NCBI GenBank assembly: GCA_029582155.1
Contig: CM055901.1
Span: 6,180,874 to 6,244,873 of the forward strand
DNA from: Panopea generosa
Lineage: Eukaryota; Mollusca; Bivalvia; Adapedonta; Hiatellidae
Direction of reading: 5' to 3'
Length of the DNA stretch: 64,000 nucleotides
Shown here: positions 15,048 through 63,205 of the stretch, piece by piece
Numbering within the stretch: position 1 is the first letter of the stretch
Layout: the number at the start of each line of letters is the position of its first letter
Translations under genes and position numbers: made by a program
The notes under the pieces: model-generated
Seen by the model: only the letters and a program-made list of their open reading frames with translations
Database searches by the model: none
What the model was told of the DNA's origin: nothing

Positions 15048-15070
15048 TATTATTTTCTAATAGCAAGCCA

Positions 15071-15346: not shown

Positions 15347-16439
15347 TTATAGCAAGTCTTCCAAAACAATGGCAATTAACATTAAAAGACGAAAATATTA
15401 CCAAGGCAATACAATTAAATATTTTAGATAAAGATATTAAAACCAAACATATAAATAAGTTATTATATAAACTTCAAAACAATGAGAGTGAAGAGACTGA
15501 GACAACCATCAAATCTCAAACAAAATGGCAGGAGTTATTTCCTCAAACTGAATTAAACTGGAAAATATATTTAAAAACAATAGAAACTACAATTGACGTA
15601 AAATTAAGGAATTTTCAATACAAATTTTAACATCGAATAAACTACTGATGAAACAAAAATTAACAAATTCATATCTTTGTGATTTTTGTAATATGATATC
15701 AAAACCATAAGTCTTGTTTTGGGAATGTATGCCCATTCATAGTTTTTGTGTTGAGTTAAATGCATTCTTAAATGTACAACATACAGATATTCATATAGAT
15801 ATAACAGTTTGTTTCGGATATTGTTTCATAACACCTTCATTTAAAGATATATAATATTATGTGCAAAATATTACATTTTTTTTTTGTAAATGCAGGAAGA
15901 CTAATCCGAGCCTTGGGCACTTAAAAACTACCTAAAAAATCAAACTGAAATAGAAAAGCAAACAGCGTTCACCCATGACAAATTACAACATCATGACTAA
16001 GATGCATTATTTCTATCAAAACCAAGAGCAAATTAAAAAAATATATATATATACAAAATCTGCTACAAACATCATCAACTGTCATGGAAAAACAATGTAC
16101 CTAAAAAACCTTTTTTTTATATATATTCTTTATTGTAATATCTTGAGAATATTTTTTTTTAAAGTAGAGATAATTAAAGATTTGTTTAAAAAAATCTAAC
16201 TGCTGGTAAGATATGAGTCGTATTAGAGAGTGCATGCTTGCGTGTTTCACATATGTGATAAGGATAAAACTTATTTCATCAAACATTATATAGAAATAAC
16301 TAAATTAAGAAAAGCGGTATGAAAATCATGTTATATTGCAGTTGTTATAGTATTAGCACAGTATGATGTTACGACTAACTGTATGTTGAAATTTGTTGTA
16401 CTATGTAATGATTGATAAAATAAAACATATTGAATCACA

Positions 16440-17727: not shown

Positions 17728-17801
17728 TTATTTTCTTGAAGCAGGAACGTCTTCAGACGACATTTCTTCTGAAGAACTTTCATTTTCACTGTCTTTCAAA
17801 A
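17728..17801 (-). CDS. Host gene, terminal exon A4 (acidic Ser/Glu tail)
   Basis: The acceptor is a long T tract then CAG (minus strand, ending 17802). The exon reads VLKDSENESSSEEMSSEDVP then ASRK and TAA at 17728-17730. The phase (one base carried from the previous exon) matches the donor of exon A3. The tail is very acidic and Ser-rich, a typical nuclear linker or C-terminal tail with CK2-like sites. Recombinase-like host genes of this family often continue with acidic stretches after the recombinase domain. Too short for single-frame gene calls; it is supported by the splice signals and phase. Confidence 0.65.
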
Positions 17802-18064
17802 CTGAAAAAAAAAGGAAAAATGTAGATTAACTTGATTAAGTATATAAAATATTTCCCCATCTTGAATATGTTACCACTAAATATATTATTATTGTACATT
17901 AATCTCCCTACTATTTGCATTTTCGCGATATCCCCCCTTGGTATGGTGGTCTTAGACTAGTAGTAAATTATGCACCAACTGGAAACTGTGAAACCAGATA
18001 TATGTTCAAATACAGTTGGCTGGTGACCTAACAGCTATAAATACACATTGGTTAGTAGTTACCA

Positions 18065-18700
18065 ATTGCTTGGCATTAGGTTTGGTGTTGGTTTGGTTTT
18101 ATTTAATATCATTTAATAGCTTTGGTCTATTAAGGACAGCCTCCCTATGTATGCAAGTTGAGTACATGTGTTGAGTGCGTGTATTTTTGGGAGACTGTGA
18201 TATGTTCCTGTATGCCTCCCTATGATAGCACGGAACCGATGCTGACTTAATAGTGCTATCCTAATGAAATACCATGCCGGTGGCACACAGCAGGATATCC
18301 CACCCAGTCACATTACACTGACAACGGGTTAACCAGTCCTTTCTGTCACTCATTTAATGCTGAGCATCAAGCAGGTAACAGTAAGTACCAAAGTTTGCCT
18401 CGTTCAAGGGGCAGAACCCCTGCCTTCATCACTTGGGCGAATGCTAAACGCAAGGCCAAAAGCAAGGTTTTGCCAAGTGAAGCATTAGGAAACAAACATA
18501 GACAGAAAGAGGAGGTAATTAAGAATTCCAAATGTTTCAATGGACACAGCAGATTTATTTTGGTCACTTTTGTGTCCCCAAATAGAGGGCAAAAGAATAA
18601 ACCCTAATTCTGCGATGGATTCCACATTAGTTGCCTCTTATGAACCATGCAGTGGGTAACAGCAGGTGTATTTTTTTTCTAATCCCCGACCTGCATGGGT
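18065..18700. repeat. Dispersed molluscan-type repeat in the last intron
   Basis: Starts 'ggtttggtgttggtttggtt', then 'tctattaaggacagcctccc', 'cctatgatagcacggaaccg', 'gtgctatcctaatgaaatac', 'cacattacactgacaacggg' and 'catttaatgctgagcatcaa'. I recall this order of blocks from a high-copy interspersed repeat in bivalves and other molluscs. No coding function. It lies between exons A4 and A3. Confidence 0.7.
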
Positions 18701-19077
18701 GGCTTGGCATTAAGATAGGAGTATGAGAGTATACCTGTTACCCAGTTATTATCCACATTTATTTCCATATCATTAAGTAACTTATAGAGTCAAATGACTT
18801 TTTTGTAACCCCTTCTGAGATGCGACCCTAACTATAAGTAACTTTATAAGATATTTCAAGAAACACACAGTCATGTTAATTGATCTATTTTGACATATCA
18901 TGACTAGAGCTATTCTATAATAAGCACCTGTAGTCTTACATGTGGCAGGGTTAAAATAAGATTAACCTTATAATCTTTTCTCTTGTTAAAACTGTGACCT
19001 TTTGCATTTGATGGGTGGTAGGATCTCTGCCTGGCACTCTGCAAGTTATTCTGGAATATATATATACATATACGTAC

Positions 19078-19158
19078 CATATTCATCTCCCGAAGATTGT
19101 TCCTCATAGTCATGTTCCACCATTCGTTGTTTGTGCCTGCAGGGTCTCCCTTGAAAAT
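19078..19158 (-). CDS. Host gene, exon A3
   Basis: 81-bp exon between acceptor ACAG (minus strand) and donor GTACGT. With one base carried in and one carried out it reads DFQGRPCRHKQRMVEHDYEE then QSSGDEYG. It is open only in the phase predicted by its neighbours. The first half is basic and the second acidic. No domain recognised; probably part of the linker after the recombinase domain. Confidence 0.65.
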
Positions 19159-19589
19159 CTGTAATTTTAGTTTAGAGAGAATGTGAACAAGTCTTACAAT
19201 ACCACTCCCCACCTGCATGACCTATCAAGTGACTACAATTCATTTTCTGTGATATTTTTAATTTTAGTATTAATAGTGATCTTGATTTTGGACCAATAAT
19301 AATGATTCTTTGACTGCTAAAGGTAGGTCACAGGCAAACATGTCTGTAAAGTTTCGTGCAAATCTGTCGATAAATCGGCCCACTATACTGATGACAAGGA
19401 GAGTGCAAAAGTGAAATCTTGTTTTTGACCTTGTCCTTTCACGTGGATATTCAAATTTCTCTGAGGTATGTCCAATGCAAACATATCTGTTAAGTTTCAT
19501 AAAAAAATATCAACAAATAAATCCACCAGAGTGATACAAGAGTACTGTGGGGCGGAACAATATACGCCCGTCTAATGCCTAAGTGACAT

Positions 19590-19985
19590 AGATTCTTGTA
19601 TCAAAATGGAGAATGTAACATGGAGAATTGTTGAATCAAAGTGCTGCTTGAGAAACCATAATTACATGTCATGGTAACAAATTAAATCCTACAAAGTTTC
19701 AAAGAGATTGATAAAAACCTGAGAGAGGTGATCTCTGGGCAAGATTAAAATACTGAAATAAACAAAGGGCAGTAACACTTTCAAAAATTGATGAATCAAA
19801 ATGCTGTTCAAGAAAACACAACTACATATCGTGATTATCAAGCCCACAAAGTTTCAAAGAGATCTGTTCAAAACTGAGAGAGGAGATTTCCAGACAAACA
19901 AAAGTTTATGATGGATGGATGGTGGCCATACCATACCATAATACTCCCATAAAAATTTGACGGGCATATAAAAAAGGAGTGTGAG
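19590..19985. repeat. Tandem repeat, ~185-bp unit, about two copies
   Basis: Two diverged units share 'tgaatcaaagtgctgcttga'/'tgaatcaaaatgctgttcaa', then 'gaaacca'/'gaaaaca', 'acaaagtttcaaagagat' and 'ctgagagagg'. It ends with 'gatggatggtggccatacca'. Lies in the intron between A3 and A2. Confidence 0.6.
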
Positions 19986-20389
19986 GGTAAAATAATATCA
20001 TTGATAACAGTCAATGACCTTTGATCGAATTTGACATAGCTTAATTTCTGCCTGTTAACTTCACCCTGATGATTTGTGTGTAAATGGTAGGGAATTCTCT
20101 TTTTCTACACGATTTGTTAGCCCACAGGTGTCTGTTACATAGTTATTTATTAAAAATAAATTAATACTAGATTACTGATGTGTCAGTGTGGGCCCCCCGC
20201 AATGTGCTTGTCTCTAAACATGAACTTAGCCCATGTGTGACATTGATATTGAATAACTTCTTATATACTGCAAGTATACAAATTACAACATATTCATTAG
20301 TTAGATATTATGAAACTATGGTGAAGGAAATCGATTGAGGGGTTCATGAGGTATCTTGTTTACAAACTTTTTTTATTTCAGAAGTAGTC

Positions 20390-21030
20390 AAGTGTGAACT
20401 TTGACCCTTTAACCTTGAAGGTTGTCCACCCAAATTTAATAACAGTGACCTTGACCCTAGGAACTTTTTAAACCCCCATTGCACATCTGTATATCACAGT
20501 GTATCATCATGTGCAATTTCAGAAAATTTGGTCTTCTTTAAAGGCCTTACATGATGTATTTTTTAACAGTATATTCCTGGTTTTATTTTAGTAACAGCGA
20601 CCTTGACCTTGACATTAGGAACTTTTTAAATTCCTACTGTACATCTGTATATCACAGTGTATCATCATGTGATACATGTGTATTTCAGAAAGTATGGCCT
20701 TCTGTAAGGGCCTTATATGATGTTTTTGACAGTATATACTCAGTTCTATATTTAGTAACAATGACCTTGACCTTAAGAAGTTTTTAAACCCCAAATGCGC
20801 ATCTGTATTTCACAGTGTATCACTTCATCATGTAAAATTTCAGAAAGTTTGGCCTTCTGTAAGGCTCTTAGATGATGTATTTTTGAAAGTATATTCCTGG
20901 TTCTATTTTTAGTAACAGCGACTTTGACCTTTGGGGTCTTTTTTAAACCCCTATTGCACATCTGCACATCACAGTGTAACACCATATTAAGTTTCAGAAA
21001 GTTTGGCCTTCTGGATTCTGAGATAATCTC
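20390..21030. repeat. Tandem repeat, ~150-165-bp unit, four copies
   Basis: 'gtaacagcgaccttgacctt'-like starts occur at about 20443, 20590, 20755 and 20914. Each is followed by 'actttttaaacccc', 'gcacatctgtatatcacagt', 'gtatcatcatgtg' and 'tcagaaagtttggccttctg'. This is a known style of bivalve intronic repeat. Non-coding. Confidence 0.75.
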
Positions 21031-21582
21031 CAGAAACGAAAGTACTGACGTGATTACTATAGGGCACCTGCGATGCGGGGCCCTAATAATGCTACCTGAC
21101 ATATGCCTTACATAAATACATATATAGTATAGCCACCATGTTAAGTGATCCTAGGTCAAAACTTCTCCCATAAACGTGAAACTTTTCTTACACGGATAAG
21201 AGAGACATGAAGAAATTTTAAGAGAATTTTGACAAATTATAATTTCATGTATCATAGTGTAGCTGAATATGAATGGAACTGTTCACTAAATATGCACACA
21301 GTATTGTCATTGTCAATGTTCCAGACATTAATCTTTACAATGTTGGCATACTTCGAAGGTTTTTCTTAAAAGTTTCATTTATCTGTAAGGGTTTAAAATG
21401 TAGTCAGTACAAGACTTTACTGAAAAGTTTGCACTTATTTGACCTAGAGGTAAATGTCACAGTGACATTTTTTGGCCAGACACAATACACCAACTGGTAA
21501 TTATCTGCAAATGGTCAAAAACTTTAACCTTAGAACAGGAAGAAGGATGAGGGAACACAATAGATGAGCTAAAAAGACCTAC

Positions 21583-21651
21583 CCATATCATCTTCAGTCC
21601 TACATTCATCAGGCTCTGCATAGCATGTTTTCTGTTGTGACATTTGTGGAC
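21583..21651 (-). CDS. Host gene, exon A2 (duplicate of A1)
   Basis: 69-bp exon, acceptor GTTACAG and donor GTAGGT on the minus strand. It reads GPQMSQQKTCYAEPDECRTE then DDMG with phase 1 at both ends. It has the same length and phase and most of the same residues as exon A1 (25321-25389). The flanking intron bases ('attaattattaaattaatga' against 'ataattattaaattcataaa') are also similar, so a genomic segment was duplicated in tandem rather than one exon only. Because both ends are phase 1, either copy can be included or skipped without a frameshift. Confidence 0.7.
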
Positions 21652-21699
21652 CTGTAACTATTAATTATTAAATTAATGAGTATATCTAAATTGTCAAAC

Positions 21700-24600
21700 T
21701 AGAAAATGTTTGTAACAGGCATGGGGTAAGTAAAAATGTAATGGTAATTAATTGCAATGCATTACATTTTTTCAAGTAATTGAATGTAATGTGTTATTGA
21801 AGGTAAATTTAATTACATGTAATGGTAATTTAATTAATTACATTAACAAAATGCCTGTAATGCCCAATTGTGTTTCAATTACATTTTTAATAAGTTATAG
21901 ACATTTATTTTGCCCAGGCAAGAATAATAAAAAAATGACTTTGAAAAAAAAGGTTGCTTGCACCGCGCGGTGGTATTACAGCCGCAGGTCGCTTAAGGCC
22001 CCCATAAGCTCTGGAGTAAATGGTGCAAAATCCTGAATCCTGAGCATTTCCCGGCACATATTTCAATTCCTCAAGATACTATTCTTTTTACAAAGCAAAC
22101 TTGAAATTTTGTTAAAATTTGAGCCAAAACTCAGATCTTTTTAGATTTCTGTACTGCAGCACCTGTAAGGCAGTTGTCTCATTAACATTTTAATAATTTT
22201 ACCCACGTTTTTACCTAGATCCACTCAAAACAAAACAAGAAAATTTCAACAAAGATCAATTGTTTGGCAAGTTATTTATGACTATATAGGCCTAAAAACT
22301 AGAAAGAAATAATAATCTAGGCTAATTTTTCCAAGGTCAAACGTGAATTAGATCGAAAAACACCAGGTCGAAAGAATCCTTATTATTTGCAAATACAAGT
22401 TGTGAACAAACCAAATAAAGCTACCTCTCTAGGCTTTAAAACTCATTGATTCGTGGGAATCTTGGTATCGCTAACTGCATTGAAGACTGTTCTGTTTGAT
22501 AAGAAGCACATCAGTGCTCCAGATAAGGTGCATATTTGCGTAAATAAGCATTGAAATTTACAGAAAAAGCATTGAAAATAATTAATGTGCGTACCGGTAC
22601 GCATAAACAATTGAGTTTAAGCATTTCACTGGCGATCTTGTGCGTATTGTATTTTTGAAAGACCTGGGTTATCACAACTGATGTAGACACCGTGAAATAA
22701 ACAAATCTAAGGGAGGTAACTTCTAAGCCATTTGTCTGGTTTCCGAGCGTATTCCGATAAACTGAACTGTTTATATGTAAAATGCGGAACCAGACTAACA
22801 CATACAATATAGTGATTGCCCGTAGATCGTTGTCACAGAGACGCACATGGGAATATGTTGAGTAGTTCCAAGCGTTCTGAAAAGGCCTGTTATAAACGTA
22901 AGACGACAAACTTAATGTGTATCTATTATTTATTCTAATGGCATCGTCTGGTTCTGCCGTCGGGAGACGCAAAAAAAACCCATAGAAACCCAATCTACTA
23001 ATTTATTCCAGTTTGATTGCCCTTAGGTTAAATTTAGCTGTTACTGATAGTATTAAAAAGTGTGACATCCTAAAAAGGATGACTGTTAGCCAGTTGGAGA
23101 CTGTAAATATGTTCCTCACTATAGAGAATCCAGTTCTTTTAAAGTTCAATGATTTTGTTCCAAAAACTGTTACAAGTTACATTCTTCAGAGCAGGCTTCA
23201 GGCATTATGACAGTTTTCTTGCAAATAGAGGTAAGTTTTGAAAATGTCAACTTTAAGCATTGTATTTTAATTTAGGGCGTAAAATAAGCATATGGTGAAT
23301 AACTAATCAGAAAATACTCTTTCAGTTTCCATTTTAACCATTGAATTTTATTTTAGGGGTTAAATAAGCATTGGGCCAAAAGCTTATCTGGAGCACTGAG
23401 CACTATAAAGTCAATGCATCTTTAATTCACTCGGGAACGGACCGTTTTTTAAGCACACTAGGAGTGCATCCCCAACTCGCCGTCAGACATGAATGGTTCA
23501 GTCACGTGACCGTCACATGATCGCTTCTCTGGTTAACCCTGACAACTTCAAATATTTTATCACATATGTTTTTAAGAAAAAAAAATATGCATTTTATATA
23601 AATAGAAAAGAAACAATCATCAATTCCAAACTATCCCGTTACCCGGGAAAATTTCGATCACCTGACTCAACTATTTACACATCGAACATTAGGACTTTCC
23701 GTTATTTCACTTCTATTTTAACGTGATTTCAAATAAAAATAAACAGTGCCTTAGCTCAGAACTAATAAGGTGAGAGTAGATATAAGTGAAACTTCACTCA
23801 AATTAGATACAGAGAAATGTTGTAATGGTTGAAACATTGATCAGTTTCATTATATTTATCCTGTTATGAATATGCGGATATCATTCTCTGCCCATTTGTC
23901 GCCCGCAGCAGTCGTGTTTATCGTATCTCACACTTTCATATGTCGGTAACTCCTGATGTTTGAACATTGGTGTTTGCAGGATAGATTGCCACACCTTATT
24001 GAGACGACTGACAATACTTTTAAACGCTAACTGGATCATAATTCAGAGTTTTTCACGTGAACTTGAAACATATTTTGCTCGTACATTTTAAGCAAAAATC
24101 CGGATTTTCGGAATGCAGGGAAAAACGGAAACGTCTGTAAATTGGACATTTAGAAAAGCTGAATTCTGTTTTAAAACGGAAAAAAATCATGTCTGTTTGT
24201 GCCTGACTTTGAAGATGGTCATGATGGATTTTAAGTGTCTTTATAAACAACCACTAAGATAAATATTGGTGTGAAGCTACTTACAAATGTATCTAAAGAC
24301 TGTATAAATGATAGTATGAAAAAGTTGACATGGTGTAAATGTACATTTTGTCATATATATGTTTATTATTAGTTAACAAGCAAAATATATTTATTAGCTG
24401 GATAACATTTTCAATATAGTATTGTATTGACCTGAAAGAAGTTTTTGTACACAGGTATTTTACCTAAAGTCAGTGAATCAGGGGTGAGGGAAGACATTAA
24501 CAATTAACTATTGTTTACAGACTAGGCGAAACTGTCAAGGCAAATTAAGTAGACTTGGAATAACAGATAGCATAAATGTGAAAGAGGACATGTCCACTTA

Positions 24601-24805
24601 GTATGGACCCTTCTAATTCATGCATTTCAAAGAATCATGAATTATAAGATGCTAATGGTATGTTTCGGACAAAATGTATGCATTGCACCGAAGTGCCATT
24701 TATATACGATAAAATATTTAACAGGAAAAGTAATGTAAAATTTAATTAATTACATTGCAAATATTTGTAATGGTAATTTAATTAATTACTTTATCATGTA
24801 ATTGA
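21700..24805. mobile_element. Possible element with 'aattaattacat' palindromic ends
   Basis: The left edge (21706-21860) is made of repeated 'gtaatggtaattaattg', 'gcaatgcattacatt' and 'tttaattacatgtaatgg' motifs. The right edge (about 24733-24805) has 'atttaattaattacattgca', 'gtaatggtaatttaattaat' and 'catgtaattgaa'. These palindromic ends lie about 3 kb apart in the intron between A2 and A1. They could be the two ends of one decayed DNA element or two separate insertions. A hAT-like MITE (22512-23398) is nested between them. No transposase recognised. Confidence 0.35.
22512..23398. mobile_element. hAT-like non-autonomous element, 887 bp
   Basis: The terminal inverted repeats are CAGTGCTCCAGATAAG at 22512 and CTTATCTGGAGCACTG ending at 23398. 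The CAGTG start is typical of hAT ends. The flanks 'aagcacat' and 'agcactat' are a plausible but imperfect 8-bp target duplication. Just inside both ends lies 'aataagcattg', as a direct phrase. No transposase domain is readable, so this is a deletion derivative or MITE. Confidence 0.75.
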
Positions 24806-25320
24806 ACACAGCTAAACGCCAAGTCTAACTGGACTTAAAGGCTAAGTCTAACGGGATGGACAAACGGACGGACAGACAGGGCAAACACTTAAGTTCCCTC
24901 CACTATCGTGGTGGGGGCATAAAAAGAGCATAACTAACATATGTACCACTAACATGAAATTATATTCTCTATTTGAAAGATTACCTATACTTCATTTTGA
25001 CAAAACTTCCCTTTAGAAATTAAGACTTTGTAACAATCTATGGCTGCTTAATTTGTTATGTGGATTGTTTTAAACCTTTGACAATCACCTCTAATTCCTT
25101 ATATACCTAATCAAAGTTGGTTAGGATTTTCACGTGAACTAATATTTTATTTTCTAAGCATGTTACATTAAGAAACAAATAACTGGTCGCTTCAAAATAG
25201 AACAAACGATTTTGAAAAATGGAAAACACTGCTGCCTGTGGTGGCAGAACCAAACCATTCCAATAAATGACTATTCTTTGGTAACAATATGAAGAATATA
25301 GGCGAGCTGAAAACACATAC

Positions 25321-25389
25321 CCAATTCATCTTTAGACCTATGTTCCTCAGGCTCTGCATAGCATGCTTTCCTTTTTGTCATTTGTGGAC
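25321..25389 (-). CDS. Host gene, exon A1
   Basis: 69-bp exon with acceptor TTTACAG and donor GTATGT on the minus strand, phase 1 in and out. It reads GPQMTKRKACYAEPEEHRSK then DELG. It joins in phase to the end of recombinase exon Y3 (27253) upstream and to A2 downstream. Near-duplicate of A2. No domain is recognised; Glu/Lys-rich linker. A possible acceptor between Y3 and A1, at about 25985, is not used in this model because it would give an immediate stop. Confidence 0.7.
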
Positions 25390-26179
25390 CTGTAAATAAT
25401 AATTATTAAATTCATAAATATATCTTATTTTTCAAAAATAAAGAGCATCCCTACTAACAGATGTAGCAAATCACTGCCCTTAAGCCCCAGAGGAGTCAGC
25501 ACCCTCATTTATACAATTTTGATGAGCACACTGTGGTCCAGGTGAGCTAAAATGAATGTTTGCAAGAAAGATTCCAGAAGGGGGCATCATTTAAAAAAAA
25601 AAAAAGTTGGTTTTATTATGACGAACTTAAAGGGACAATTTAGTCAACTAACAATTTTGAAATCTGTCAGGTACCGAAAATATATTGCTCCTAATGAAAC
25701 TGAACATAGTTGATAATAAGATAACATGTAGTCGAAGTCCACTGCGGTCAGTTTTATCTAATAGTAGCTGAAAACAACATTTGCTTAAGGACAAATCGAA
25801 TAAGAAGGAGGGCACTATAGAGCAAAATAAATACTTTGTTTTCAAAGACCTTATATTTGTCAATTAACCAAAATATTATTAACATGACAGACAGTCTGTT
25901 TTTCTAGTAATATATTTTCATTTTTATTTCATACATTATTACAGGTTCAACACTTCCTTCTTCTTGCAATTTGATGTCTTAATCTGGAAATAATCAAATA
26001 CAAACATGAGTTATTTCAACAAGGCTCAACTTCCTCAAAACTGCTTCTAGCAGATATTAGCTAACTTCAATATTATGAGTTTAAAATAGGTGAATCACAC
26101 AGTTAAACTACTGCTACTAGACAATGGTGGAATGACATGAATCACAAATTTGAATGTCTCTGCATCCTGTCTCTCACAA

Positions 26180-26480
26180 AGAGGTTTTATTTTTAGAAAC
26201 GATGACATTGACCTTGAACCCAAAATCCAGAAATGCACTGAATACCTGTATAAAGTTTCACTAAAATCAGATGGAAAATAAGGTCATTAGAGTCAGGACA
26301 ATTTCTATATTTAGCAATATTGACCTTGACCCCAGAATCCTACATTGTGAACTCCATCAATAAGTTATTTTGATTTTGAAAACCTGTGTAAAAAGTTTCA
26401 TGAAAACTGGATAAACAATGAAGCTACTAAGAGCAAAGACATCACAAATGTGACGGAAGGAAATTAAGACAGACAGATGC
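26180..26480. repeat. 'gaccttgacc' type dispersed repeat
   Basis: Two diverged units start 'tgacattgaccttgaaccca' and 'atattgaccttgacccca' and share 'taaagtttcactaaaatcag'/'aaagtttcatgaaaactgga'. It ends with a 'acagacagatgcaag'-like stretch. Lies in the intron between Y3 and A1. Confidence 0.55.
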
Positions 26481-27136
26481 AAGATTGTTAAACGAACATA
26501 TGGGTATAATATTATATATCAGAACCCCAAAAAATCACTGACACTTGTAATGAAAAATACTTAACTTTATAAATAAATGTAACCCACATTGAACTGTAAC
26601 CAAAAATTCACAGCCTCTAAAAAATCTCTAATTTATAGTAATTGCCTTCTCATATTTTTCAAACTGTTTATAGTTTTAGTGACCCACTGTCATAATTGGG
26701 ATTTGTAAATACTCATGGCAGATTTGCTTGCAAGATCTATGTTTAGAGGATAGTTTCTTGACAGATATAAAACAGAAAGTGAGCAGGGGCTCACAAATTG
26801 GTCTGACCTTTGACCCTTTAACCTTAACAATGACCACACCAATTAAAATCTAACAAGAGCACCGCAGATTCATGATACGCCCTTCCGACACAAATTGAAT
26901 TCATAGCATCAGTTACACCCCACAAGAACTTTCACGCAAATATTCAACACTGTAGTACCATTTTTGACTAAACTGTAGGTCTTTGAAGAAGCTTGCTCAA
27001 AAACTTTAACCAGTTGTTGATGGACAGACGGTATTCCATAATATTATGTCTTGAAATTCAATACTATAGTGTAAATGAACTAAATTTGCCATAGGATTCA
27101 TGGGATATCTTGTACACAAGATTTTTATACACAAGT

Positions 27137-27164
27137 GGGGGGGGGGGGGGGGGGGGGGGGGGGG
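27137..27164. repeat. G28 homopolymer
   Basis: An uninterrupted run of 28 G on the + strand. It can form a G-quadruplex. Its true length in the genome is uncertain, because such runs are error-prone in sequencing. The proline-rich minus-strand frames here (27006-27255) are artefacts of the run. Confidence 0.9.
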
Positions 27165-27252
27165 AGTAAACCCTGTACAAACTTTGCACAAGGTTGTGAC
27201 CTCCCAACTCAGCGAATGACTGCATGAGTACCACCACAATGAACTTACTTAC

Positions 27253-27448
27253 CATCTAACTGAATATCATCCAAGGACATTCCAGTGAACTGGTGGGCTT
27301 TGCCTTTCTCAACAGTGAGCAGCAGTTTGCTTACTTTTGCCAGTTCTACTACATCCTCCTGTAGCCTGTAGAACTGTCTATGAACACTCAATTCATGGCC
27401 CATGTGTCTTGCCAACTCCTCAAGTTGCCCATTGGACAGATTGAACAC
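27253..27448 (-). CDS. Host gene, exon Y3: tyrosine-recombinase C-terminal motif
   Basis: 196-bp exon (acceptor CTAG, donor GTAAGT, minus strand; phase 0 in, phase 1 out). It reads VFNLSNGQLEELARHMGHEL, SVHRQFYRLQEDVVELAKVS and then KLLLTVEKGKAHQFTGMSLD. The pattern 'LARHMGHE..VHRQFYR' is the end of a Crypton-type tyrosine recombinase domain: the His of MGHE takes the place of the fifth catalytic residue (H/W), and the Tyr of QFYR is the nucleophile candidate. This family of host genes, found in fishes and molluscs, normally has 'LAKFMGHDI.VHREFYRLP', so the match is close. The substrate and whether it is catalytic are unknown; domestication is inferred from the splicing and intact frame. Confidence 0.8.
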
Positions 27449-27939
27449 CTAGAAATTTGTTTCAGTCTTGTTACAACTCATACAAATAATTTGAAACATA
27501 ATATACCCTTCAAAATATATAATGTTGGATACTTTTTTCCATGGATGTATGAAAATCCAGATAATAGTAAAACATCATTTACTTATATTTTGATCGCAAA
27601 TGAGGTATACAAAATACATTTATTTTTTTTGTGAATTATAAATCTTCAAGATCTCAATTTCTTCTAGTGTTCCAGTTATTCAAACTCCTTTTAAAATATA
27701 AAACTTATGATGGAAAAATTTATGAATTTTCATCAATTAAAGATTTATTACCCAATTTCATTAAAATCTAACAATGTTAGGTAATATTCTGTTTTACAAA
27801 TACTCTATTTTTATAAAACAAACAGCATTTTCTCAAAATTGCAATATTAATGGCCATACGGTAATTATTCTGCAAAGAACCCATTTTAAGTGAAAGAGAC
27901 ATTAACCTCAGAAGCTAGCAACTCATCCAATTCAAGGTA

Positions 27940-28784
27940 CCGTATATCCTCGGCCATAAGTCGAATTTTTCAGACTCCAAAATCACTCTCTGAATCCCTA
28001 CTCGACTTATGGCCCCTTCCTAGTCCCGAGTGATGATTTTTTATACCAACGGTCAGCTCCTACTGAAGTTTTGAACGTCGAATTTCAGTTTCAGCAACAG
28101 TCTATATGAACAATGACACCAACTTTTTGAAATACGTTTTGTGACGTATACCGGTACTTGCCAGTTTTACTGTCGGTACCGGTGGAGAATGAAAAGAAAT
28201 TGCATAGAAACAGACATTTGCATGATTTATATTGATTTTAGTGGTTTAATGCCTTCGAAATTTAATTGAAACAGTCAATATTACCGTTTAAGATGTGGAG
28301 GTAAACGGCGCTTCAAATGCAAAGGGGCGTAACTCTAGTTTACAACGGGTATAACTGAATAAATGATATTACGGTTACTTTATGAGTGTTCTACTTTCGT
28401 CCCGTATAATTCTTTTTTTATTTATTTTTTATTATTTTGCTTTTGTTTTAGCGGATTTGTGTGAGAGAGAAAAGTTTTCTGATAAGGCAGGATATCACAG
28501 TGTAAACGCTTGTAAATAGTTTACTTGTTATTAGTGCGAATATTCGCCAATTAAAAAAATCGGGTTTATAATGTAATTAGGTAAGTTCAAAAGATGATTT
28601 TGAATACAAATGCCATCATTTAATTCTCGGTTTGTTCATTTCTAAGTAGCTAATCACAGTTACCGGTAATAACATAAAATTCTGGGTCGACTTAAGGAAG
28701 GGTCAATGCAAAAAACTGAGATCTGAAGGTCAAAAAGTCCCCTCAACTTATGGCCCGACTCGCCTTATGGCCGAGGATATACAG
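27940..28784. mobile_element. pogo/Tc1-like MITE, 845 bp, TA target duplication
   Basis: The ends CCGTATATCCTCGGCCATAAG and its complement (…CTTATGGCCGAGGATATACAG) are inverted repeats of at least 20 bp, flanked by TA at 27938-27939 and 28785-28786. Internal subterminal repeats 'ctcgacttatggcccc' and 'ctcaacttatggcccg' recur in both arms and may be transposase-binding sites. TA duplication and a C(A/C)GTA start fit the Tc1/mariner-pogo superfamily. No ORF for a transposase. Confidence 0.8.
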
Positions 28785-28863
28785 TATCTTAGTTCTTATC
28801 ATCCCAGACAGTTTTAATAGAGACAGCAAGTGGCTGTAAAAACCAGAGCTATCACTGAAGGTG

Positions 28864-29640
28864 ATGAATACCCCCGAACGCCGCCATGACAGAAAATGTT
28901 TTACCATTGTATGAAGTTTTATTAAATTATATCCAATAGTTTTAAAGTTATGCTCCAGACAAGGGAAATATATCAAAGGGCAATAACTCTGTAATTAGCA
29001 AGAATAGAGTTATGTTTCTTGTACACTGCACTTCCTCTCATTATATTTTACCATTGTATGAAGCTTGATGAAATTCCATCCGGTACTTTTCAAGTTATGC
29101 TCCGGACAAGGGAAATATAACAAAGGGCAATAACTCTGTAATTAGCAAGAATAAAGTTATGTTTCCTGTACACTGCACTTTCTGTCATTATATTCTACCA
29201 TTGTATGAAGTTTGATGAAATTCCATCCAGTACTTTAAAAGTAATGCTCTGGACAAGGGAAATATATCAAAGGGCAATAACTCTGTAATTAGCAAGAATA
29301 GAGTTATGTTTCGTGTACACTGCACTTCCTCTCATTATATTCTACCATTGTATGAAGCTTGATGAAATTCCATCCGGTACTTTTCAAGTTATGCTCCGGA
29401 CAAGAAAAATTATCAAAGGGCAATAACTCTGTAATTAGCAAGAATAGAGTTATTTTTCTTGTACACTGCACTTCTTCTCATTATATTCTACCATTGTATG
29501 ACGTTTGATGAAATTCCATCCAGTACTTTTCAAGTGATGCTCCGGACAAGGAAAATTGCAACAGACAGACCGACCGACAGACCGACCACAGGGTGACTCC
29601 AATATACCCCCTCAAACTTCGTTTGTTGGGGGTATAACAA
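28864..29640. repeat. Tandem repeat, ~152-bp unit, 4.5 copies, in an inverted-end element
   Basis: Each unit contains 'taccattgtatgaagcttga', 'aaattccatccggtactttt', 'aagttatgctccggacaagg', 'aaagggcaataactctgtaa' and 'gcaagaatagagttatgttt'. Units are clearly alike, so the array is young or homogenised. The left border 'gaatacccccgaacgc' and right border 'cgtttgttgggggtataac' are inverted relative to each other, which suggests a single mobile unit. An 'acagaccgaccgacagaccg' stretch precedes the right end. Confidence 0.8.
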
Positions 29641-29734
29641 GGTAGTACTGGTTGGGGACTAATTGTGGGGAAATTTTAAGATGTCAGTTTTTATTTAAAG
29701 TGGGTCCACTACAGATGGCTGACAATTTTCCTAC

Positions 29735-29863
29735 CTGAGAAACTGTAGCCATGTACTTCCTCAGTTTTGTGCTTGTAATCAATTCTGGATATTTGATGTC
29801 TTCTGTGCAACTTTCGACAATTCGCTTGATTGTTGCACAACCACGGAGATGTCCAGTTTCTCC
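29735..29863 (-). CDS. Host gene, exon Y2: recombinase box-II Arg region
   Basis: 129-bp exon, exactly 43 codons, acceptor TTTTCCAG and donor GTAGGA on the minus strand, phase 0 in and out. It reads GETGHLRGCATIKRIVESCT, then EDIKYPELITSTKLRKYMAT and VSQ. 'STKLRKYMATVSQ' corresponds to the second conserved Arg of tyrosine recombinases (HxxR, here with T in place of H) in the Crypton-type family. It joins Y1 (…PFVFAL) and Y3 (VFNLSN…) in frame to give a collinear recombinase C-terminus. Confidence 0.8.
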
Positions 29864-30490
29864 CTGGAAAATGTGAAAACTGTGTTATTCATTATCACAC
29901 AAAGAACCCTGCCCAAGAACAGCTAGCTTATCCCATTCAGGCATTAAAAAATCTGTAAGCAATAGTGTATTATTCTTCACCCTTTTGATGCTAATTTATT
30001 CAAGAAAGAACTAGAAATAGTCCACCCTGCTTTTAACAGCCACTGCAAATCTCAAATAACAAAATAACAATAATTAATGAGGAAATATTACCTTGCAAAA
30101 GACTTATACAGAATTCCAGCTGCAGTAACCTTGACATATAACCTTGACCTTCAATATAATACACATCTTCAGACCATGGTACATTATCCTGTTAAGTAGA
30201 CATGATGACTCAAAGGACAGATGTATCTGTTATTGTGCACATGTACACACCATTCAATAACAAGTACGCTTTCAAATATTCCCGTGCAACATTACTGTGA
30301 TGGGATTACTATATCTATACATAAGGTTTCCGAAGTATGACATTAACATCTAAAATTGAAGGATGGACGACAGGCAAACTGGATCAGCCACTCTGCCATT
30401 ATGAAGTAGACTAAAAGTGAAAATGCACAAAAAACTTCAATAATGTAGAAGTATGTTTAATTGTGAATGTTTTGCAAGAAAACTACATAC

Positions 30491-30635
30491 CAATGCAAAA
30501 ACAAAAGGATTCTCTTTAGGGATCCCAACTGTCTCTCTAGTGGATACAAGAGTATTGACTGCTGCAAGCATGTTCGGCGTCATAAGAACTGGAACCTTTC
30601 TGTTCTTTTTCCCCAAGACTTCCACCATGTCCATG
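30491..30635 (-). CDS. Host gene, exon Y1: recombinase region before box II
   Basis: 145-bp exon, acceptor TTTATTTCAG and donor GTATGT on the minus strand. It reads MDMVEVLGKKNRKVPVLMTP, then NMLAAVNTLVSTRETVGIPK and ENPFVFAL. The phrase 'GKKNRKVPVLMTP' corresponds to 'GKRGRKVPVLLTP' of the family and is a conserved core beta-hairpin region. The end 'ENPFVFA' is where these proteins have 'ENPYVFA'. The exon starts with the last base of a split codon, so an upstream exon carrying the first catalytic Arg must exist; I could not find it between 30.7 and 36.9 kb. Confidence 0.8.
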
Positions 30636-32255
30636 CTGAAATAAAAGACCTAGACATAATGATCATTTACACCCACAGAAAGAAAAAGTTGTGATTATTC
30701 CGATAGCTACACTTTGGTGCCCAAACGTTTTGCTAACTGTTTTAGTGCCAGAACAGTGGTGTAAACCTTAATTTCTGTAGTGCTTTGATCATGCAGTGGA
30801 TTCATGGGTTCATTATATATAAATCTGATTCAGGTAATTAATGTAAAATATTTAAGTGCAAATACATGTATCAAGTACACTATTAACAGCCATTTAATTA
30901 GCCATTATCAATGGATATCTGCCGCCTTAGATTCTTGAAGACACTGAGTAATCTAAATGAGGTAAATATTATGATTATTCAAATAATAATTATTTAAACA
31001 ATAACAATACAAATATGCATGTATTCAAGGGCTCGAATTTAAGCACTCACCACTCGCAAAATGCGAGCTGTATTTTGAAAATGCGAGTTGAAATTACTTA
31101 AGCTGGCATTTTTTTGCGAGTGGATTTCAAGTTGAGAAGATTACTTATTGTACTCATTTTATTGATTTTTGAAAATAAACAAGTAACCTGGTAAAAATAA
31201 CGAGTCAATTTTACCCAATTTCTTTTGCCTTCGCGCCAAATTACCCCCTAGCAGCATGATTGTCAATGACCAATCGTGAAACATCGGGTATTTCCGTATC
31301 CTCCGTAGAATACACCTCGTGTATAGCTCTAGAATACACCAACGCGAATCGCCTGTGTTACAAGTCTGTGTTCATTCGCGTGAAAGTAACAAATAATGTA
31401 TCCGTCATTAAATTGATTATATATGGCGTTGTTATATCGATTTTTTTATTTATACACTCGACATGAGTCATATTTATTGGGAAATTTAAAATATCAGTCT
31501 TGATTAACAAACGTTTATATTTTCAACGTACATGTATATAAACAGGTGGCATAAGGGGGCCGCCATTTTATTTTATCATGTGACTGAAAGTATTTCCAAA
31601 ATGGCGCCTTATTATGTCAGAGGTCTATTGCGTAGCATAAAGGCCGAGGTGATCAGATTGTGTCAATGACATGTATTAAATATTTATATGAGAAGACTGG
31701 GTCCAATTGTTTTTGATCTCGAGTTCATTCTGTAAAAAGGAAGTAAAGTTAAAACCCGTCAACAACATAATGAGTAGATTGCGTCTAGTTTGATCCAACG
31801 CGGATTCACTCTATAAAATAAAAAGTAAAGTTGAAACCCGTCAAATTTATTGTTTACGTATTTTGTCAGCTTTAAAAATGGCTGATAAAATAACGAATGA
31901 AAGTGAGTCCCAACAAGAAAAAAAGAGAAATAATCCTTCCGTTAATGCTGTAATGAAATGTGAGCGACAGCTCAACATTTACGCATGTTAAACAATCTTC
32001 CTTGGATAGATATAATTTTAAAATGATAGGCCATTGGCTATATTATTTCTTTAAATAGAAATGTGTGTATGTCTCAATCTCAATCTCTGTACACTTGTTA
32101 TTGTTGAATCCATGATTCATGTTTTTGTTAATTTAAAAGTGTTTATTTATGATATATCATTGTATGCATTTATTTATGTAGTATAATAAATAACAAAGAC
32201 AATTTTATATTTTAAAATATTTTGTTTCGTAAAGTACTGCTTTGAATTGTACAGA

Positions 32256-32535
32256 GGGCCCGATTAGCTCAGTCGGTTACGCGTCTGACTATCAATCCAG
32301 GGGTCGTGAGTTCGAATCCCCCGCCCGGCAATAGTCTCCGTGATGACTGATATACGACATTGTGTCTCATTATCATTCGTCTCTCACCACTGATTCAAGT
32401 GGGAAAGTTATCAGTTTCTTGCAGAGATGGGGTGTGCTCAAGTACTGGTTAATCCCAGGAAACAGTGGTTAGGTTAACTGATCGTCTATTAGCCCTCGAT
32501 GGCATAAAAATGACGCTAAATATTCAATCAATCAA
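32256..32535 (+). mobile_element. tRNA-derived SINE, copy 2
   Basis: Full-length copy: GGGCCCGATTAGCTCAGTCG head with A box, intact B box (GAGTTCGAATCCC), the common body and an (AATC)n tail. The target-site duplication is 'ttgaattgtac' on the left and 'ttgaatcgtac' on the right. It lies inside the 31.0-33.2 kb hAT-like element. Confidence 0.93.
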
Positions 32536-32555
32536 TTGAATCGTACCTTAACATA

Positions 32556-32956
32556 TATGGGTGGCATGATTTACCAAATACTACCCAATACTACCACATA
32601 CTACCCAATACTACCACATACTATCACAAACTAGCTATAAATACACTTAATTTAAGTGTGTTTGTGTTTATTCTTGTTTTATCTTAAAAAATTGTCTTTG
32701 ATAAAAGATTTACCATACATTATTATTGACTTTTTTTTACTTATTTTATTCGGCAGTAAACGGTTATTGATACGAAATACTTATCAGTGATAATCCCTCA
32801 ATTTGCGTTGATTCATATCTCACTATATTTGTGTTCCAAAGTAAAAATAAAGCAAGAATAAACACAATCACACTTAAATTAAGTGTATTTATAGCTAGTT
32901 TGCGATAGTATGTGGTAGTATTGGGTAGTATTGGGTAAATCGTGCCGCCGAACATA
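32556..32956. mobile_element. Fold-back MITE with ~130-bp inverted arms
   Basis: The left arm 'gatttaccaaatactaccca' through 'agctataaatacacttaatt' and 'taagtgtgtttgtgtttatt' is repeated in reverse complement at 32840-32956. The flanking 'taccttaa' and 'taccttga' suggest a 6-bp target duplication TACCTT. No ORF. The left arm also has an extra internal copy of the 'actacccaatactaccacat' unit. Confidence 0.8.
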
Positions 32957-33179
32957 TATTACCTTGATACCATTGTCTATAAGATAAATACAAGCTAATA
33001 ATGCATATTAAATAACACGCAGGCTTTGAAACAATTAAATCTGGGTTTATTAAGACATTTAGGAATACAAGTTTCTGCGAAAATTGGTTTTTTATAGTTG
33101 GTTTCAAATTTGGCCAGTTGAAATTTTAGGCACTGGCCAAAATTGCCAGTGCACAAAAAAGTTAAATTCTAGCCCTGGT

Positions 33180-34960
33180 ATTTCTATACAGATCCTCATT
33201 TCCAGCATGCTGATCTCTAGCAAAACCTAATAGAGAATTAGTGTTCACATTCTTAAAGCATTATGAGCTGTCATTGCGCAATTTTTACTTGCAGATTTTA
33301 TGTTATTTTTTATCTTGTATATATCAGAAAGAGATATCCTGATGGTTAAAAAAACAAATGCATGCATATTATTAGAATAAACTCGCGAAACGTAACCCGC
33401 TGTAACCATAATTTTGAATCCGCCATCACTCTGGCCATCGCAAATTAACTTTCGGAAATTTCTACGAAGATTACAGAGTGCGATTTGCAGTAAACAACTT
33501 TGTATTGAAGTGCTTGTATTTATTTCAAATTCATGCGAAAAATAATTATTATACGTGAATACACTGAATAGACAATGTAGCTTTGAAACGCATTTTTCCG
33601 ACATTGCTTCAGCTTCAACAAATGTGTGGTAAAGGTTCTCTGAGTGTTTGACCTAGAGGTCACTTGCATACTACGATTACGTCAGGGAAATACTTTACAG
33701 TGCAGTCCACTTATTTGCATAGTGGATATTTGCATAATTCTGTTAATTGCATAGGAACTCAAAACACAGAACCAAATCCTATCTATTCAATGTTAAAATG
33801 TTCCTTTATTTGCATAGAAAAAATGTCAGAATTTGTTTTATTGCATAGCAAAATTTATAAGACCAAATATTTCCCATGACGTAAATGCCCTCAGGTAACA
33901 GTGACTGGTCTTTACCTGAGCGTTAATTGTTTGCACATGCGAATCTGCTACTGTAAATTGTTTTGTTAAGACAACGTCCGTACATACCTGTCTGTTGATT
34001 AGACTTAATTGATTTGTTTGGGTAGTTATCTTAGTCCCTTTATCTCACCCGTATGTAGACCACGTAACTCGGCGGATTGTTAATTACCTACCGTAATCGG
34101 CAGTTTAAAGACTAATCTGTATTTTTTTCTACAAAGTTGTGCCCTCAACCTACCCACCGTATGGACCTATCTAAGTCAAATATCCAAGGTACTGAATAAA
34201 ATTTTGATTGGTCTAGGCGAGTAAATGATGTGTGAATAATTATGCTGATTGCATATACATGTACGTATACACCGTTGAAACTTATAATTGATTGCATTGT
34301 TGGAACAGAGTCAATGAACAATCACTTTCTATTTTGCCAACCGACAATCATGTCTATAGATGATGGAGCTTTACTTCACCTCTATCCACTAACTAGCAAT
34401 TTTGTCCAAAATTAGTATTAGAATATAAATAGTTTGAAATAATATCAGCACTGTTACAAGTCCGAGTATGTAGCACTGCTTAGAAGCTGGTGTGTCAACT
34501 CATCGACAGACGACTCGCCAATGTCTTTTCTATGACAGACATTTTCATCAACATGCCATATACCCGGTATATCACAGATGAAAAAAACAAGACAAGTCAT
34601 CGACAATGTTGTCAACGTTAATGTTACAAACCCCTAGTTTCTCCTCAATAACTAAAACTTTTTTTCTGCGTTGAATGTGAAATAATATGTACATACACCA
34701 GAACTAGCTTTCATTTTCATTCTGTAGTTTCTTATATTTTTTTACTACAGTATACTTACAGTAACTCAAGATAATTTTTTATATCTGTATTATTAAGCAT
34801 CAGGTTATCTTTGTCTCATTAGAAGTTGAGGAAGGAACACTTAAGACATCATCTGACACATCATTCATTTGTTATTAGACGGTTTCATATATACTAACCA
34901 CAAACAAATCCTACAAAAGGTTTCTTAACATGTACAGCTTGTTGCACTATCAGATGTGCT
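33180..34960. other. No exon found; possible pogo-like terminus
   Basis: I looked here for the missing second half of the SET domain and found no convincing exon. At about 33698-33740 'cagtgcagtccacttatttg' followed by repeated 'tttgcata' resembles one end of a pogo/Tigger-type element, but no matching other end was seen. Confidence 0.35.
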
Positions 34961-34969
34961 TAATAACAC

Positions 34970-35213
34970 AGGGATTTTCCACACTCTTTTGGGAATGGAG
35001 CCTGGGCCTTTTGAATTGGGATTTTTAGCAACATTTTATTGAAATTGGGAAATCTAGAAATACACAAATCTGTTTGAAAATACAAGAATCTCTTCAAATT
35101 CATTGTCATTTGACTTCAATTGGGAAATTTCCACTGCAAATTGGGAAAAAATGCATTTTTTGCAGTGGGAATGGGGCCTTATTTCGGCCCCCTAAAATAG
35201 GGTGGAAAATCCC
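34970..35213. mobile_element. Short hAT-like MITE (CAGGGATTTTCCAC ends)
   Basis: The ends CAGGGATTTTCCACAC (34970) and GGGTGGAAAATCCCT (to about 35213) are inverted repeats. The flanks share 'ataaca' on both sides. Inside, 'gggaatggagcctgggcctt' and 'gggaatggggccttatttcg' are direct copies. About 245 bp, non-coding. Confidence 0.7.
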
Positions 35214-35281
35214 TATAACATATCAAATTCAAAGGAATGTGTGATTTTTATAGTGAAGGCAAAGAAAGAAATATATATATA

Positions 35282-36772
35282 CTAGCGGAAAAAAGAAACT
35301 GTGCATGGGTATAATATGCTATAACTTAGGAGATATATAAGAAATCGCAAAAAAAAAAAATTTCAACAGGGTTTTATCTGACCTTTATTGAACACCAGCT
35401 CAATTGATATGGTTATTACATCAGCAGCGTCTTGGATAGAGATCAGTTTTTAGAGACATTCTCTAAACAAAGTTCATCTCATCAATACCGTATATATCCA
35501 CCATTGGAATCGATGCTTGCTTGGCAACGACGCCTCATTGATGTGACAAATGTGCTGAAAAATGCCTGGGGAATACCATTCCAGATTCTCACAAGCGCAT
35601 GTGACAGGTCAGGTAACGTCAACGGCTGATTTTGGAGGCGACGTAAGCGACGCTGCATCTCATCCCACACGTGTTCTATAGGCGACACATCCGGTGACAT
35701 TGCAGGCCAGGGCAGCACATTCACATTGTTCTGGATCAAGACGTCGGTGACGACCCGCGCCATGTGCGGGCGAGCGTTATCCTGTTGCAGCGTGGCGTTA
35801 CGTTGCTGCACAAATGGAAGGATGTGAGGACGTATGATTTCGTCACGGTACCTGATGCCTGTAAGTATGCCGTCCACAACCATAACAGCTGTTCTGCCAT
35901 GGGATGAGATGCCACCCCACACCATGACACTACCTCTGCTGAATGGACGTCGTTGAATCACACAACTGTCATGGAAACGTTCACCAACACGACGGTACAC
36001 TCTAGAACGACCGTCGCTGCTGTCCAGATGAAACCTGAACTCATCCGTGAAAAGAACACGTGCCCAGTCCTGTTGCGTGAAGTGTATGTGTCACCAGGCA
36101 AAACGTGCTACACGATGACGTTGCTGGAGAACAGGACGTATGGCTGGACGTCGTGGACGTATGCCTTGTTCAAGTAATCGATTACGTACCGTTTGGGGAC
36201 CAATTTTTCTAAGGCCAGGAATACATCTAGCCGTCAAAGTAGCAGTTCTGAGTCGTTCACAGAGATGAACGACCCGGATGTACGTATCCTGGCGATTAGA
36301 CGTTACGCGTGGGCGTCCTGACCGAGGCCGATCTCTGGTGGTCCCAAACTGTTGGTACCGTCTCCAAAAGGCGTTTACAGTATTTTGGTGCACACCAAAT
36401 TGTCTGGCAACGTCAGTATGACGTACACCAGCTTCAATCATGCCTACGGCGCGGCATCTGTTAGTTTCATTCAACCTTGGCAAGACGTTTTTCAAAATTA
36501 TGCTGGTTTTGTGTCTTACCAGTATCAACACTATGCTTTTACACAGGTTTAGGCGACAAACGTGTTTGCGATTGACTGCTGACCGAAAAAAAACGTGAAA
36601 ACGAAGACGTTGGCCAGACAGACAAACTACCTGTGCGTGCAACTCATGCACTGACCAGTGTAAATGACCGAGAGGGATACACAACTTACCTGTGTAAAGT
36701 TTTAAGCTTTAATTTATAAAATTGAGCGATACATGAACATTTTACACTTGCACAGTTTCTTTTTTCCGCTAG
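35282..36772 (-). mobile_element. Tc1-family transposon, complete, 1491 bp
   Basis: The 24-bp ends CTAGCGGAAAAAAGAAACTG then TGCA are perfect inverted copies at 35282 and 36772, and the flanking dinucleotide is TA on both sides (35280-35281, 36773-36774). One transposase frame fills the interior on the minus strand. Identical ends and a transposase with only one stop indicate a recent insertion. It lies within the presumed intron between the SET and recombinase exons. Confidence 0.93.
35482..36684 (-). pseudogene. Tc1-type transposase (DD34E), one in-frame stop
   Basis: The transposase cuts and joins the element ends at TA sites. The N-terminal part has LNETNRCRAVGMIEAGVRHT, the HTH 'DVARQFGVHQNTVNAFWRRY' and the AT-hook-like GRPR (RPRSGRPRVT). 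A second HTH region holds GIPGLRKIGPQTVRNRLLEQ. The catalytic part has FTDEFRF (first D), QQDNARPHMAR (second D) and SPIEHVWDEM (E), spaced 34 residues, so DD34E. A TGA at 36091-36093 right after RVARFAW is the only break; the frame on either side is the same. It is a plausible CGA to TGA change. The usual start would be just before LPRLNETN, where the codon is now GTC, so the open frame upstream to 36684 is probably untranslated leader. Confidence 0.92.
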
Positions 36773-36902
36773 TATATTTATATATTCAGAGAAATCTGAA
36801 TCATAGATAAAACAATAATAAATTATACAATTCCTGACCAACCAATTTTTTTGACAGTGAAACAGGAAACACATATTTACACCTAGTGAATAATAATTGT
36901 AC

Positions 36903-37049
36903 CAATAAGTTATCTTGTTATGCTTGAACAAAAATTTCAAGCCGCAGACGGAATCATTTTCTTCACATTCAATGGCAGCTGACAAGCCTCCTTTATACTC
37001 TAAGAGAAATTCTCCTCGTGAAAACCGCTTACCAGCAAATACTCCATGA
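36903..37049 (-). CDS. Host gene, exon S2: SET-domain N-terminal half
   Basis: Acceptor TTTTTCAG (minus strand) at 37050; proposed donor GTACAA at 36902. It reads GHGVFAGKRFSRGEFLLEYK, then GGLSAAIECEENDSVCGLKF and LFKHNKITYW. 'GVFA.. F.RGEF..EY.G' is the start of a SET methyltransferase domain (SET-N), closest in style to KMT5A/SETD8-like proteins. SET proteins transfer methyl groups from S-adenosylmethionine to lysine. The catalytic half (RxxNH and GEEI.YDY motifs) is not found downstream, so the domain is incomplete here. The donor is the least certain border: the frame stays open beyond it for a while. Confidence 0.7.
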
Positions 37050-37394
37050 CCTGAAAAATATATAGATTTTGAAAGCTGAAGAATGATTTATACATGGAAA
37101 TATGGCCAAACTTTATAATCGATCATCTTGGTTTTTTTTGGTCATTTTCAAGGAAGGAGTTGTTTAAGTAAAGCTTCCTTTTCTTAATTTCCATTTTAAA
37201 AATAATATGATTTTTACAACCGACCTACCCTTTTTTCTGGCAAGTGGAAACAAGGGCTGTTACGGGTAGCAAAATGGTGCCAAATATATCTGCCGATATC
37301 AACACGACCCACAGCCGGGTATACAACTATGAGTGAATCTTTGCAGACATTAAGCTCTACTCACAGTGACATACTAGTCGCTACTGCTACTTAC

Positions 37395-37514
37395 CAATGT
37401 ATGTACCAATAAATTTTAACACAAAGTCTAACTCATTGTTTCCCCTCTTAGCATCTTCATCTGGACTCTTTGGTTTCACCTTTCTGGAGCTAGTCCTTGA
37501 TGTTTTCATTCCGT
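37395..37514 (-). CDS. Host gene, exon S1: N-terminal exon before SET
   Basis: Acceptor TTTTAG and donor GTAAGT on the minus strand. The frame reads MKTSRTSSRKVKPKSPDEDA, then KRGNNELDFVLKFIGTYIG, with the ATG at 37507-37509 as the likely start (the two codons before it are also open, so an upstream exon is possible). Phase 1 at the donor fits S2 exactly, giving FIGTYIG-HGVFAG, the standard lead into a SET domain. The N-terminus is basic and Ser-rich, possibly a nuclear localisation signal. Confidence 0.7.
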
Positions 37515-38330
37515 CTAAAATGATAAACAGACTTTAGTGTAACCTTTCAGACCTGAACTTTAATTGCACATGTTTGTTTGCAAATTATGCAAGTTGTACA
37601 AATTTTATTATTTCATACACAAGCAAAGATTCTCACCAGAAATATGAAATGTTGTATGTGGTACTCATAACTAAGTTGTACCTCATTGCGTTCAACAATT
37701 GACAGTGCATTACAGTGAATATCGCCTGCAATTTTTTATATATTGTAAATCACATACAAATATTTGGGATATTGTGCTACTCCAACCCCATGGTTGAAAA
37801 TAAGCACTCGCCCACTCGCATTTGCGAGTAAATTTATCAGGGGGCGACGAATCCTTTCAGTTCCTCTCGCTCACTTGGCGAATGCATTTTTCGCACCTGT
37901 AAACAAGTGCTATTTTTTAGTTTTCCTCGGATGTCCTTATCTAGTTCACGCTTGAAGCGTGGAGTGGTGTGTAACCTGTTTACAACTTGTGAAATTTATC
38001 GATGATACTGTTTTTTCGATTAAGTCATTTTCTGTGGTTAGAATACGTTTATATTAACAGGACACACAGCTTATAAGGTATTGAACATATCTGTCGATTT
38101 GCATTTTTGAAATACAGACTAGTTATCGTGATATTTGATTGACATTTTTGGAGGTGTACCGCTGTATTATATTTGGTGGGTGGGGTGTATACAAGCTTAT
38201 ACCCCACGGGCAGAGCGGGAAATTCGTCACGCTTGAGTACACACGATAAGTTTATGTTGTAATACACGACAAGAGAAGTGCACGAATCAACGGTTCACCT
38301 GTTCAAATTAAGCCACACCGAACATTTAAG

Positions 38331-63203: not shown

Positions 63204-63205
63204 AA

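Follow-up and report, generated by a model that had tools for sequence, protein, structure and literature searches.

A possible truncated remnant of a SET/recombinase-like gene in the bivalve Panopea generosa

SETMAR combines a SET domain with a mariner transposase, linking histone methylation to an element-derived module. In the Crypton-derived DUF3504 genes KCTD1, KIAA1958, ZMYM2-4, QRICH1 and WOC, as described in passages of Kojima and Jurka (2011, PMC3212892), a recombinase part is joined to a host gene and catalytic residues are lost. In TMPO/LAP2alpha and ZNF451, an element-derived part is spliced to a host gene (PMC4495291). Here, we describe a locus of Panopea generosa in which the start of a SET domain and a tyrosine-recombinase-like end lie on the same strand. 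The locus occupies positions 17728 to 37514 of a stretch of 64,000 nucleotides (assembly GCA_029582155.1, contig CM055901.1, positions 6,180,874 to 6,244,873; hereafter the window), which has a GC content of 34% and no gaps. We tentatively read it as what remains of a single SET/recombinase-like gene, shortened and without a full set of catalytic parts. Searches of the open-licence PMC literature listed no title or abstract beginning that describes a tyrosine recombinase fused to a KMT5A-type SET domain.

The locus shares with the Crypton-derived genes a recombinase-like part that would be joined to a host gene and that lacks catalytic residues. In contrast, the domains of KCTD1 and KIAA1958 are intron-free and have lost the catalytic Tyr, according to the same passages of PMC3212892, whereas the Panopea sequence is interrupted by introns and a candidate Tyr is present. 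The LAP2alpha part, as presented in PMC4495291, derives from the first open reading frame of a DIRS1-like element and not from its recombinase.

An earlier note, made from the sequence alone, had proposed nine small exons on the minus strand: S1 and S2, encoding the SET part, and Y1 to Y3 and A1 to A4, encoding a recombinase part and an acidic tail. All nine were borne out, with AG acceptors and GT donors in place in both clusters (S1-S2 and Y1-A4), and the peptides given for them were correct. The phases, read off the exon lengths, agreed at seven of seven junctions within the clusters, as had been claimed: phase 1 at S1/S2, phase 0 at Y1/Y2 and Y2/Y3, and phase 1 at Y3/A1, A1/A2, A2/A3 and A3/A4. 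Spliced S1-S2 encodes 88 residues and spliced Y1-A4 encodes 253 residues up to a TAA stop, before which no in-frame stop occurs in any of the nine exons.

Exon S1 (37395..37514) encodes a basic N-terminus leading into the SET domain, with a possible start ATG (MKTSRTSSRKVKP...). It has a single open frame, the acceptor ttttag and the phase 1 donor TTG/gtaagt. In its short form, exon S2 (36903..37050) encodes the N-half of the domain (GHGVFAGKRFSRGEFLLEYKGG...NKITY). When S1-S2 was compared with PDB sequences, the top 14 matches were all KMT5A/SETD8, the H4K20 monomethyltransferase (E 5.2e-4 to 2.6e-3; the query included one extra residue, W, read from the DNA past the S2 donor). These were followed by an 'uncharacterized protein ABO_0056' (E 0.1) and then by MLL-type SET domains (E at least 0.64). 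Further, the Pfam SET model matched S1-S2 at E 0.018, which is below the cutoff, over the first 28 of its 105 positions only. Thus the reading of S1-S2 as a SET N-half held, and the PDB matches identify the N-lobe as KMT5A-type.

The C-half of a SET domain holds the cofactor-binding and catalytic motifs. In six-frame searches of the window (3390 pieces; tblastn at a word size of 2, and phmmer run unfiltered with --max), no C-half bearing the NH and Y motifs turned up, and the best matches were at chance level (E 0.45 and 0.79); such exons may lie beyond the window. In this the locus differs from KMT5A/SETD8, and the absence noticed earlier was confirmed for the window. Longer putative SET-family probes did detect S2 (E 8.9e-6 and 7.9e-10).

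The recombinase-like part consists of Y1 (30491..30635), with the Lys hairpin GKKNRKVPV; Y2 (29735..29863), with the box II sequence STKLRK, in which the Arg is retained and the His is replaced by Thr; and Y3 (27253..27448), with the GH motif and the candidate nucleophile Tyr (RHMGHELSVHRQFYR). In a two-sequence BLASTP search, residues 8-118 of Y1-Y3 aligned with residues 173-275 of XerC (E 0.52). In this register, GKKNRKVPV lay opposite GSKERRLPI, TKLRKYMAT opposite HKLRHSFAT and MGH opposite LGH, and the final Tyr residues were aligned. The Lys hairpin, the box II Arg, GH and Tyr were therefore all in register, with Thr at the box II His position. The locus thus resembles XerA, XerC and XerD in its Lys hairpin, the x-L-R of box II, GH and Tyr, which follow the order of XerC at similar spacing. 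It differs from them in the substituted His, in its introns, in a profile comparison that was not significant, and in the first-Arg (catalytic Arg I) exon, which probes from putative relatives did not find in the window in the searches described above; its absence had also been noticed earlier. NCBIfam gave weak matches of Y1-Y3 to archaeal XerA (E 0.0038; 16.8 bits against a cutoff of 220) and XerC (E 0.0086; 15.5 bits against 335), whereas its reversed sequence matched nothing in either PHROGs or NCBIfam (limit E 1).

We also compared Y1-Y3 with the recombinase-like sequences of two putative relatives, one from fish and one from molluscs, to which it is 48-49% identical. By tblastn, the fish sequence detected Y3 at 8e-17, Y1 at 6e-14 and Y2 at 8e-6, and the mollusc sequence detected the three Y exons at 2e-18, 1e-11 and 6e-6. 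The putative fish sequence itself matches the phage integrase family phrog_1 (E 0.003), and the putative mollusc sequence matches a PHROG of unknown function (E 0.063) and NCBIfam XerA (E 0.068). Unlike the present locus, both have the first-Arg region, and the fish protein has a zinc-finger N-terminus; the same six-frame search of the window detected no zinc-finger linker. The similarity of Y1-Y3 thus appears to lie beyond chance, but solely against these putative relatives.

A Pfam search of Y1-Y3 gave no match (limit E 10), and a PDB sequence search returned no recombinase but three unrelated chains (best E 0.73). The DUF3504 (Crypton-derived) model presumably belongs to the Pfam library used, and we rejected the Crypton/DUF3504 label on the Pfam result. 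The proposal of a Crypton-type recombinase end thus stood for the aligned Lys hairpin, T-x-L-R, GH and Tyr and was not supported for the Crypton assignment. The domain searches that had been proposed for the joined exons were likewise divided: the SET part was detected, if below the cutoff, and the recombinase part was absent from Pfam and weak in NCBIfam. Descent of Y1-Y3 from a tyrosine recombinase is not proven but likely. Introns of 0.6 and 2.3 kb interrupt this part, as would be expected of a gene of long standing and less so of a recently inserted transposon. The Y2-Y3 intron contains a tandem array (28902-29556; 147-bp unit, 4.5 copies, 91% matches).

The acidic tail is the least certain part. 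Its candidate exons A1 (25321..25389), A2 (21583..21651) and A3 (19078..19158) have splice sites and matching phases, the candidate last exon A4 (17728..17801) ends in TAA, and the nearest AATAAA downstream of A4 is at 16707, about 1 kb away. A screen of the 9.5 kb downstream of Y3 for splice sites and an open frame, with thresholds set to the lowest of the scores of A1-A3 themselves, returned exactly these three exons. The mean in simulated Markov sequences was 0.70, 52 of 1000 sequences reached three, and the plus strand of the tail region contained two candidate exons. By splice sites and open frame, therefore, A1-A3 are not clearly beyond chance; the exons and phases proposed for the tail can be read, but simulation matched A1-A3 in those 52 cases. 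Further, A1 and A2 arose, together with their intron flanks, by duplication of a single 146-bp stretch, and the two copies are 81% identical. Between them, 57 of 69 exon positions and 61 of 77 flank positions are identical, and each of the 10 codons that differ specifies another amino acid. Since the exon is conserved about as well as its flanks and every change is replacing, the tail shows no trace of selection after the duplication.

Between S2 and Y1 lies a gap of 6.3 kb that contains a Tc1-type element and other repeats and no recognised exon. The Tc1/mariner-type transposon (35271..36783, minus strand) has 45-nt inverted arms that are 91% complementary. Its transposase (Pfam DDE_3, E 1.5e-15, and helix-turn-helix matches) has the orientation of the gene and contains one internal in-frame stop. 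The gap also contains a palindrome that spans about 390 bp (32.56-32.95 kb) and has arms of 94 nt, and, at 32.2 kb, one copy of a four-copy repeat whose other copies are at 15.0, 44.6 and 45.0 kb. This repeat (15013-15349, 32203-32545 and 44575-45335; alignments of 281-368 bp, 83-95% alike) resembles a short interspersed nuclear element; a tRNA-like stretch can be seen in it by eye, and ARAGORN reports no tRNA. Two exact stretches, 31271-31313 and 31631-31660, are 317 bp apart and are adjacent in a counterpart at 45830-45901, as if there had been an insertion at one place or a deletion at the other. AATAAA occurs 15 times in the gap, once inside the Tc1 element (35389), which is unremarkable in AT-rich DNA; polyadenylation there is thus possible.

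The short S2 donor (TTG/gtacaa, 36903) is weak, with a score of -3.63 under approximate weights. It is a phase 2 donor, and Y1 adds the one base that completes a Cys codon. Past this donor, the S2 frame continues into the Tc1 element without a stop for a further 71 codons or so, a run with a chance of about 1.2%. In a possible long form of S2 (36690..37050), this frame ends at the strong donor ACACAG/gtaagt at 36690 (score 8.76), which far outscores the other GT sites of this frame (21 listed in all; runner-up, 0.52). The long donor, too, has phase 2 and keeps the Y1 frame; the stop right behind it is automatic for a phase 2 gtaagt donor and is uninformative. From the sequence, S2 can therefore join Y1 in frame, through either its own weak donor or the strong Tc1-borne donor.

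How these parts belong together can be explained in several ways. In the reading that we tentatively favour, the locus descends from one intron-rich animal gene with a KMT5A-type SET start and a tyrosine-recombinase-like end. The middle of this gene (the SET C-half, the linker and the first-Arg exon) would be gone from the window in this copy, and the Tc1-type element and repeats would fill the space between S2 and Y1. If the locus is transcribed, S2 might be spliced directly to Y1, in frame, by either donor. The arrangement is consistent with this, as S1-S2 and Y1-Y3 lie on the same strand with the SET part first and the recombinase-like part last. The same strand, order and phase tell against two unrelated neighbouring pieces, namely a KMT5A-like gene (S1-S2) that was cut short when the Tc1 element inserted and rearrangement followed, and a separate recombinase-like 3' end (Y1-Y3, perhaps with A1-A4). 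That explanation is doubtful but deserves serious consideration, given the 6.3 kb without a recognised exon and with several repeats, the AATAAA signals, unremarkable as they are, and the weakness of the natural S2 donor. A complete working gene, whose middle exons lie in the gap and escape recognition through divergence or small size, would suit the stop-free exons and the acceptor ahead of Y1, which implies an upstream exon. It is unlikely, as the tblastn and phmmer searches of the window detected neither a SET C-half nor an exon for the first Arg or a zinc finger, although the longer putative probes of the same families detect S2 and Y1-Y3. We regard as decidedly improbable an expressed host gene that unites a KMT5A-type SET N-lobe with a recombinase-like DNA-binding end, in which the Tc1 insertion supplies the strong donor for splicing of the long S2 to Y1; its product would be a catalytically dead chromatin- or DNA-binding protein whose sources were a methyltransferase and two different sorts of mobile element.

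The Tc1 element could also be a partner in its own right. As in SETMAR, a Tc1/mariner-type element of matching orientation lies behind SET exons, and it is 120 bp from the S2 donor, so that the SET start could be fused to the transposase directly behind it. One of the six acceptors scoring above 0 in 36660-36400 (first base 36403, score 0.63) fits the transposase frame from a phase 2 donor. In contrast to what such a fusion calls for, the other five, including the best (3.71), are out of frame, and the transposase frame has an internal stop; we therefore consider this event very improbable. That the locus is a mobile Crypton which encodes a recombinase for itself is barely credible: the recombinase-like motifs would agree with it, but the two introns that split this part, the first-Arg exon that was not found in the window, the replaced box II His and the lack of a Pfam match all argue otherwise.

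Several observations weigh against descent from one recombinase-bearing gene that is now decayed. The nine exons are free of stops, which is unexpected for a long-dead pseudogene. That SET and recombinase-like parts occur together in one protein in fish and molluscs is no more than an unconfirmed lead. S2 and Y1 would be in frame by chance in one case out of three, and their agreement was recognised only in hindsight. Further, the top NCBIfam match of Y1-Y3 was an unrelated dehydratase (E 0.0016), and the best NCBIfam match of both the fish and the mollusc sequence was an unrelated regulator (E 0.058 and 0.036). Y1-Y3 matched no PHROG, and a PDB profile search with it returned seven non-recombinases (best E 0.01). 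Finally, the hhalign score of Y1-Y3 against XerC/XerD (14.8) was not above those of column shuffles (top five of 200, 18.4-19.5; reversed, 14.0).

The earlier note had suggested a methyltransferase/recombinase fusion. Both parts are present on one strand, and their order and phase allow one transcript; 'fusion' of enzymes is too strong because the SET domain is without its C-half, the recombinase is without the first Arg and the box II His is Thr. Judged from the exons recognised in the window, neither enzyme can be complete. The product, if active at all, might be a DNA- or chromatin-binding protein; more probably, the locus is a truncated copy under relaxed selection. We infer the common ancestral gene, the tyrosine-recombinase descent, the lost activity and any binding role alike.

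Scans of sequence collections for relatives gave 3 + 83 pattern matches in viral contigs and 35 + 56 in bacterial and archaeal genome contigs, among which none was confirmed. Animal relatives were hardly expected in the latter scans, because the contigs are bacterial and archaeal.

The window also contains other elements. Three retrotransposons of the long interspersed nuclear element type lie at 38250-43024 (plus strand), 50735-56064 (minus) and 59725-63209 (minus). Reverse transcriptase was matched in the first two (RVT_1, E 1.6e-40 and 1.7e-21, respectively), and the third and the outer limits of all three were assigned by reading frames only. The element at 38250-43024 begins head-to-head with S1. 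An rva_4 integrase core (PF24764) at 9036-9828 (minus) extends across two overlapping frames and is thus probably frameshifted. Arrays of a similar 21-bp unit occur at 12094-12402 and 47275-47639, separated by 35 kb. tRNA and Rfam scans of the window returned nothing.

Known regulators derived from mobile elements keep the recombinase or transposase part, which presumably serves to bind DNA. If the protein also carried a SET domain, that part would become linked with histone methylation. If the locus is only a truncated copy, it would have little importance beyond annotation; with its catalytic pieces missing, this copy would test whether such fusions survive without enzyme activity.

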